Assembly (NCBI GenBank): GCA_023053685.1
Contig: JALIGW010000013.1
Location: forward strand, 11,992,001-12,056,000
Reading direction: 5' to 3'
Length of the DNA: 64,000 nucleotides
From: Diadophis punctatus similis
Taxonomy: Eukaryota; Chordata; Lepidosauria; Squamata; Dipsadidae
In this document: piece by piece, positions 34,704-34,831 of the stretch
Numbering within the stretch: the stretch's first letter is position 1
How the letters are laid out: the number at the start of each line of letters is the position of its first letter
Notes under the pieces: generated by a model
The model's database searches: none
What the model was told of the DNA's origin: nothing
Seen by the model: only the letters and a program-made list of their open reading frames with translations
Translations under genes and position numbers: made by a program

Positions 34704-34831
34704 AACATTTTTTGCTGATAAATGAAAATAAAGGGAGACTATTATAGATCTATTTCGAGCTATTTTGCTCTCGTCAGATAGCCATACCCGTAGTGGGAAT
34801 TGAACCTGTAATGTAATTGAATATTACATTA
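34704..34831 (-). mobile_element. hammerhead-bearing retroelement terminal fragment
   Basis: About 128 bases of non-repetitive sequence lie between two long dinucleotide microsatellites. They contain GCTGATAAATGAAAATAAAG, the ribozyme and GTAGTGGGAATTGAACCTG. Hammerheads of this layout in animal genomes are known from Penelope-like element terminal repeats and some small retroelements; I cannot tell which applies here. Confidence 0.4.
34737..34783 (-). ncRNA. type I hammerhead ribozyme, all core residues intact
   Basis: Read on the minus strand the order is: stem I 5' strand GGCTAT; core box CTGACGA (C3 U4 G5 A6 N7 G8 A9); stem II GAGC with loop AAAATA and GCTC; core box GAA (G12 A13 A14) plus A15.1; a palindromic stem III (ATAGA/TCTAT) closing with U16.1; A17 as the cleavage nucleotide; and stem I 3' strand ATAGTC. 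Stem I pairs six of six (one G-U) and may extend through GGG/CCC beyond a small internal loop. The G10.1-C11.1 pair is present. The predicted cut lies between 34743 and 34742. Stem III has no spare loop, so it would need to open partly or act as a dimer, as in known retroelement hammerheads. Confidence 0.85.

Follow-up and report, generated by a model that had tools for sequence, protein, structure and literature searches.

Our analysis suggests that the hammerhead ribozyme (HHR) described here is very probably part of a 5'-truncated insertion of a non-LTR retrozyme, a satellite of Penelope-like elements (PLEs) with a ribozyme that would act as a dimer. The insertion lies in a stretch of 64,000 nucleotides from Diadophis punctatus similis (C35:11992001-12056000; hereafter the window), and its relatives were sought in the whole genome (1.78 Gb, 419 contigs). 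What we observed directly is the anatomy of the element, its copy number, a fixed 3' end, a polar (CA)n tail, tandem and head-to-head arrangements, junctions like those of PLEs, and one chimera.

The ribozyme and the truncated copy in the window

The features of the locus, in window positions with the strand in brackets, are as follows.

34737-34783 (minus): type I hammerhead ribozyme, from Rfam RF00163, genome matches and model R1
34742-34743 (minus): predicted cleavage site, between A17 (34743) and 34742, from its position in the core
34744-34753 (minus): 10-nt palindrome AUAGAUCUAU, a short stem III in the monomer and a 10-bp shared helix in the dimer, from the sequence and the two-strand minimum free energy (MFE) fold
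34703-34808 (minus): body of a retrozyme of family A, 5'-truncated, starting 25 nt ahead of the HHR and reaching the fixed 3' end TGTTA(CA), from alignments to other copies
34796-34806 (minus): B-box-like GGTTCAATTCC of a tRNA-like module, monomer positions 252-262
34725-34728 (minus): TTTT between the HHR and the 3' end, the sole T run of at least 4 in the reference monomers A and B
34627-34702 (minus): (CA)n tail adjoining the fixed 3' end, from TRF and the same junction in other copies
34579-34627 (unstranded): (TA)n past the tail, likely part of the target, from TRF and inference
34807-34833 (unstranded): filler at the 5' join, an 11-bp perfect inverted repeat with a 5-nt loop, snap-back-like, from the sequence
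34833-34993 (unstranded): (AT)n array 5' of the copy, probably the target, from TRF and TATA in other 5' flanks

By inspection of the sequence, the HHR on the minus strand (34783-34737) is complete, with all core bases. Stem I (GGCTAT/ATAGTC) has 6 bp including one G-U, the core reads CTGACGA followed by GAA and A17, stem II (GAGC/GCTC) carries a 6-nt loop, and stem III, AUA[GAUC]UAU, lies within a 10-nt palindrome. A preliminary description of this DNA had listed the invariant hammerhead positions, a 6-bp stem I, a 4-bp stem II and a palindromic stem III, and the sequence is as described; our reading of the core would also place the cut between 34743 and 34742, as it had predicted. When positions 34690-34850 (161 bases) were searched with an E-value threshold, the top Rfam match was RF00163 (Hammerhead_1), aligned over the whole model (1-45 of 45) with 26.6 bits and an E-value of 7.5e-5; the runner-up at this site had an E-value of 2.7, and no other hammerhead family was listed there. 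The conserved core and the three helices of RF00163 are all present. At the gathering threshold, a search of the whole window gave zero matches, the gathering score of Hammerhead_1 being 34 versus 26.6 bits. That threshold of 34 bits is missed both by family A (26.6 bits) and by its sister family B (17.4 bits). The Rfam check thus returned the proposed family as the best one, with a score below the threshold, an outcome that had been named beforehand as speaking against the ribozyme.

Despite this score a chance match, already considered very unlikely in the preliminary description, is ruled out by copy number, since the 47-nt HHR with at most three mismatches occurs at 3377 genome sites (1672 + 1705) versus 0 for a reversed-pattern control. 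To judge from the sequence, the window HHR is real. Our own model R1 scored it at 79.2 bits, the window being one of the six training sequences of that model. A loose motif (CTGANGA..GAAA) gave 12 matches versus 5.8 expected; as 4 of 100 shuffles also reached 12, these counts were of little use as evidence for an HHR and were dropped. Covariation in the stems was likewise set aside as support because there were too few diverged copies; in one old copy (L051) the innermost pair of stem I shows a double change, and stem II has decayed.

Folded as a single strand, the HHR has an energy of -5.3 kcal/mol versus -9.3 kcal/mol for a rival MFE fold. The two-strand MFE structure is the exact double hammerhead, with the 10-base palindrome as a shared stem III, at -26.8 kcal/mol. 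The energy gain on dimerization was matched by 788 of 2000 dinucleotide shuffles, and dimer stability was therefore rejected as evidence. In the available part of the axolotl report, HHRs with a weak stem III are described as cleaving far better in dimeric constructs (PMC7229834).

The copy in the window is a single truncated unit without tandem repetition. Positions 34808-34691 aligned at 97%, and the body left in the window is 106 bp long, with TGTTA at 34707-34703. The copy starts at 34808, just before the B box, and the A box is missing through 5' truncation, so that only the B box is left. TRF confirmed the flanking (TG)n and (AT)n microsatellites noted previously. The inverted repeat at 34807-34833, searched for with at most four substitutions among 89 distinct ribozyme-bearing loci, was found solely in L001, which is the window place itself. 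The suggestion that the locus marks the end of a retroelement stood in so far as this is a ribozyme-bearing retroelement copy with its 3' end on the (TG)n side; in place of a larger coding element there is a 5'-truncated tandem retrozyme.

Copies, ends and arrangement of the retrozyme family

The 131-bp window query had 1032 candidates; the 40 that were scored gave 42 matches, many of them 100% identical over query positions 26-131, and the search for further copies that had been recommended thus led to the host element, a 315-bp retrozyme. One locus (L009) holds four HHRs at a spacing of exactly 315 bp and hence three complete cut-to-cut monomers, the second and third of which show 1 and 2 base differences, respectively, from the first. 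In sister family B the HHR spacings are 329-339 bp, with five units in L080; compared with family A there is one extra base in loop 2, and the B tail ends in ATCCTACA. When one A and one B monomer were aligned, the HHR and the next 40 nt were near-identical and the remainder showed many substitutions and gaps. The two families can lie together, as in L075 (1-1600), where a B dimer is followed by an A trimer within one TA-rich stretch. The type I HHR therefore sits in short tandem repeats of 315 and 329-339 bp, within the 150-450 bp of retrozymes, and the family is dispersed, multicopy and non-autonomous (3377 sites). The repeat unit is probably too short to encode a retroelement enzyme. The window element is thus a non-coding, non-autonomous tandem retrozyme of ~315 bp and no PLE. 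All samples were chosen by the HHR, and our counts refer to copies that contain it.

The ends were scored in 115 copies whose HHR is intact over its first part (31-32 nt), counting identical 280-nt contexts once. A fixed 3' end was found in 94 of them, followed by (CA)n (at least ACACAC) in 77 and by (TA)n in 17, and in the other 21 the sequence continues as the following monomer. One of the 21 (L043 at 1705) can be read either way, and a recount with a second script gave 20. The sample least biased by flanks comprised the window and 36 exact HHR matches on contig C1; of these 37 copies, 35 ended at the fixed position, and the exceptions (L034 and L092) run on into the next monomer. The exact A-type (CA)n junction occurs 1517 times genome-wide (795 + 722), with 0 in the control. 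Tails were measured in 91 copies, leaving out 20 run-on and 4 unmeasurable ones. CA runs of at least 4 units were present in 71 of these tails (median 14, range 1-64), and 59 of the 91 then pass into TA-rich sequence. Among the last 16 nt of 110 5' flanks, CACA occurred in 5, TGTG in 9 and TATA in 61.

Because of this 3'/5' polarity, we think that the (CA)n arises when reverse transcription begins and that TA-rich DNA is the target. The (CA)n on the element strand was most likely produced by the insertion itself, and the target looks TA-rich rather than (CA)n. An earlier proposal that the element targets dinucleotide repeats consequently survives for TA-rich DNA, which looks like the target, and falls for (CA)n, which is rare on the 5' side and most likely made by insertion. 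A comparison (L043 against L068) that includes a copy of the target repeat without the insert fits this reading, but the repeat copies are only 81% alike. In L068, L009 and L092, retrozyme insertions lie near the 3' end of one interspersed repeat, in a TA-rich stretch; we take this repeat to be LINE-like.

Neighbouring retrozyme fragments tend to face each other head-to-head. The pairs were counted in 89 distinct loci with a ribozyme, out of 98 from which six repeats as well as L029, L030 and L098 had been removed, and tandem units were merged. At distances of at most 60 bp there were 20 head-to-head, 5 tail-to-tail and 3 same-strand pairs, a limit that works against tail-to-tail pairs because the tails lie between them. 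At up to 600 bp the numbers were 22, 11 and 9, respectively, and the head-to-head excess thus persists, though it is smaller. For joins within 30 bp, 20 were head-to-head versus 2 tail-to-tail. Retrozyme pieces were also seen as short head-to-head fragments in L003 (1990-2196), L066 and L088.

Complete monomers contain a tRNA-like module upstream of the ribozyme. The A monomer has an A box at 210, a B box at 252 and the HHR at 275; the B monomer has them at 231, 274 and 298, with a second A-box-like match at 200. In these monomers the boxes are found on the sense strand only and none on the antisense strand, and both boxes at tRNA-like spacing arose in 1 (A) and 3 (B) of 100000 Markov simulations, scored with what we take to be the A/B-box consensus. 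The internal A and B boxes of a tRNA-derived SINE are therefore present in complete monomers, and a recognisable tRNA fold or score is absent: ARAGORN called 0 tRNAs, and no Rfam tRNA was listed. Pol III would be expected to stop at TTTT, ahead of the tail, and the position of TTTT before the genomic 3' end speaks against a plain Pol III transcript as the template. Hotspots of 5' ends were rejected as transcription starts; they cluster ~84-91 nt upstream of the HHR (by eye), but many 5' joins are at short TA matches.

A resident Penelope-like element and a chimera

A PLE bait sequence had 3223 relatives in the protein collection; the 120 of them that were listed carried PF26215, some also RVT_1. 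In the genome, all 150 scored matches (of 1853 candidates) had an E-value of 3.7e-40 or better, 142 of the 150 were without a stop in the match, and a 951-aa open frame was counted from the list in 32. Among 45 neighbour pairs less than 10 kb apart, 16 were head-to-head, 0 were tail-to-tail and 29 shared one strand, 21 of these with a spacing of exactly 2828 bp. Large PLE arrays, mostly of 2828-bp units that face head-to-head and have long open frames, were observed at C20:714881-733597, C68:13507768-13528330 and C112:240786692-240808097. An end fixed inside the unit together with tandem and head-to-head arrangement is thus common to the retrozyme and the PLE, and describes a way of working rather than membership.

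We read one PLE unit (L098) closely. Its reverse transcriptase (RT) scored 35.5 bits, above the Pfam cut-off, and its GIY-YIG domain 16.8 bits, below the Pfam cut-off of 22.6. A GIY-YIG family search of the genome gave 2 matches (L029 and L030) from 150 scored of 685 candidates; L029 was rejected as a PLE endonuclease, as it reads like a host gene instead, presumably SLX1 from its motif. By eye, L098 contains an HHR-like minimal core at ~977-1007 that differs from the retrozyme HHR, and neither Rfam nor model R1 gave it a score. The retrozyme monomers showed no significant similarity to this unit (best match 16 nt, E-value 0.71). No PLE pieces were found in the window, and RT plus GIY-YIG in one open reading frame, the mark of a PLE, is absent from the window element with its 106-bp body.

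The ends of the two elements can be set side by side. The 14 PLE 3' ends that we located, in 11 loci, fall at two places, namely GACCTAC(A) or its immediate vicinity (5 ends) and CTCAGAAAACA or its immediate vicinity (9 ends), to be compared with the retrozyme B end given above. They are followed by (CA)n in 4 cases, by (TA)n or TA-rich sequence in 5, and by (GT)n in 1 (L074 minus); in the remaining 4 (L074 plus, L086 minus, L089 and L092), a retrozyme comes after a short TA stretch or match. PLE pieces are present in 12 of the 89 ribozyme-bearing loci. The locus L027 contains a retrozyme dimer whose 3' side passes into PLE coding sequence at an AAACCC stretch. The PLE unit has this stretch too, as does the other retrozyme unit at L027, and it is not the normal retrozyme 3' end; on the 5' side, the dimer meets PLE sequence via a short TA stretch. 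Such a chimera was found in 1 of the 89 loci. It would be explained best by a template switch of one RT from PLE RNA to retrozyme RNA, and an insertion with a deletion could produce it as an alternative. The link between PLE and retrozyme is therefore one of junction habits and one chimera, not of homology.

Proposed mobilisation, rival explanations and known systems

Transcription, cleavage, circles, stuttering and mobilisation of the retrozyme in trans are steps that we infer, and they could be connected as follows. Tandem arrays would give multimeric RNA, possibly, though doubtfully, by Pol III from the A and B boxes. Within a multimer, two HHRs may then combine into a double hammerhead through their palindromic stem III; cleavage would release monomers, which a host ligase may circularise. 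A PLE protein from the same genome would take up retrozyme RNA in trans and cut both strands of TA-rich DNA, and reverse transcription would start inside the retrozyme RNA at the GTTACA/CCTACA site. Stuttering on ACACA would yield the (CA)n tail, repeated laps or multimeric templates the tandem copies, priming at both ends of the cut DNA the head-to-head pairs, and joining at short matches 5'-truncated copies such as that in the window. In the available text on the Anolis PLE, HHR cleavage is reported only with PLE protein added, and HHR mutants inserted in vitro unchanged (PMC11167929), so that cleavage may be dispensable for insertion. We lean, with considerable reserve, towards a broader view in which the retrozymes here are obligate PLE satellites and SINE-retrozyme hybrids that share with the PLE a (C/T)TACA-type internal initiation, (CA)n formation by stuttering and two-sided priming, the chimera recording directly that the PLE enzyme had copied retrozyme RNA and the pair of elements a source of (CA)n/(TA)n.

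That the HHR is instead a piece of an autonomous PLE, namely of its pLTR, with no separate element involved, appears improbable to us. The pLTRs of PLEs do carry HHRs according to the available text of two reports (PMC11167929, PMC7761336), and the kinds of 3' junction are common to PLE and retrozyme. However, L098, the only PLE unit that we read, differs in its HHR-like core and shows no significant match to the retrozyme monomers, and the retrozyme spacing of 315-339 bp compares with mostly 2828 bp in PLE arrays. Sense-strand A and B boxes at tRNA-like spacing, together with RT pieces in the window that score below the cut-off, would fit a tRNA-derived SINE moved by a LINE of the CR1/L2 type, in which the HHR is incidental. 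We consider this even less probable, as the end fixed inside the unit, the (CA)n/(TA)n, the head-to-head joins and the multi-unit tandems resemble a PLE, neither ARAGORN nor Rfam called a tRNA, and TTTT lies ahead of the 3' end.

Thousands of dispersed sites, a single fixed 3' end with variable 5' ends, and head-to-head joins make it very improbable that the family is satellite DNA amplified at the DNA level (by unequal exchange or microsatellite breaks) without an RNA step, for which the tandem arrays and the flanking microsatellites, which recombine easily, would speak. We give hardly any credence to the idea that the host has kept the ribozyme of this locus for a function of its own, a role that has been proposed for intronic HHRs in amniotes (Rfam names HH9 and HH10): the core is fully intact, but the locus is one of thousands of near-identical sites, and the youth of the family explains the intact core. 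A PLE-dependent retrozyme thus remains our preferred explanation of the window locus.

Several known systems resemble the retrozyme, as described in the available parts of the cited papers. The axolotl retrozymes Rtz_331 and Rtz_353 likewise have a type I HHR with a weak palindromic stem III and very many copies; their tandem repeats are ~330-350 bp versus 315-339 bp here, and the axolotl genome also harbours PLEs alongside retrozymes, the axolotl PLEs carrying HHRs (PMC7229834). The A/B-box module, the fixed 3' end with (CA)n/(TA)n, the head-to-head arrangement and the chimera found here are not described in the available text of that report (PMC7229834). Circular RNA was demonstrated for the axolotl retrozymes (PMC7229834) and may also arise from those here. 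The schistosome elements Sm-alpha and Sj-alpha are SINE-like with a type I HHR, as here; the tRNA-Gln-like genes of S. mansoni belong to Sm-alpha, and the W36.2 repeat is 335 bp long (PMC2770079, PMC8490949). These are flatworm elements, whose 3'-end habits and partner go unmentioned in the available text, and the likeness is one of description rather than of compared sequences. Intronic HHRs of amniotes are of type I as well, but have few conserved copies (PMC6155905).

Two coding systems show similar habits of insertion. Poseidon PAc of Anolis carolinensis shares with the retrozyme an AC-rich internal RT start, an AT-rich target, tandem units and an HHR; its initiation takes place in an AC-rich stem loop, and both target strands are cut and extended (PMC11167929, available text). 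PAc is autonomous and coding, whereas the window element is non-coding and without a long match to the PLE unit. The Penelope elements of Adineta vaga form head-to-head and tandem repeats as here, with an optional 3' tail and a mobilised foreign gene, and head-to-head is the commonest inverted form of PLEs (PMC3846280). They differ in being coding elements, and the available text mentions no retrozyme (PMC3846280).

According to the available text of a 2020 review, metazoan retrozymes lack a motif that reveals the mobilising retrotransposon (PMC7761336). PLEs have been named a strong candidate mobiliser of animal retrozymes (PMC7229834, in part), and retrozymes have been suggested to be perhaps PLE-dependent and a possible new type of SINE (PMC8969392, in part). 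What we describe here is a vertebrate retrozyme that combines a tRNA-like head and a (CA)n tail with two-sided insertion and that shares its genome with a candidate partner. Among the literature matches listed, which were titles and abstract starts with subscription papers mostly outside, there was no description of a squamate or reptile retrozyme. With thousands of young retrozyme sites, an abundant open-framed PLE and a chimera in one genome, the question of the mobiliser becomes directly testable, and the like ends of retrozyme and PLE hint at the enzyme that moves ribozyme elements in animals. The elements of this genome also suggest a source of (CA)n microsatellites other than the LINE seeding of AATAG described for snakes in the available text of PMC6050309.

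Further repeats were observed elsewhere in the window. At 38745-40099, near-identical open frames recur several times on both strands, forming a unit of some hundred bases that is repeated in both orientations, and a 110-bp tandem repeat of ~5 copies lies at 16318-16861. The RT-like pieces are at 40157-41011 (minus) and 61537-61854 (plus), with RVT_1 scores of 16.9 and 19.9 bits, below the cut-off; we take them to be LINE-like.
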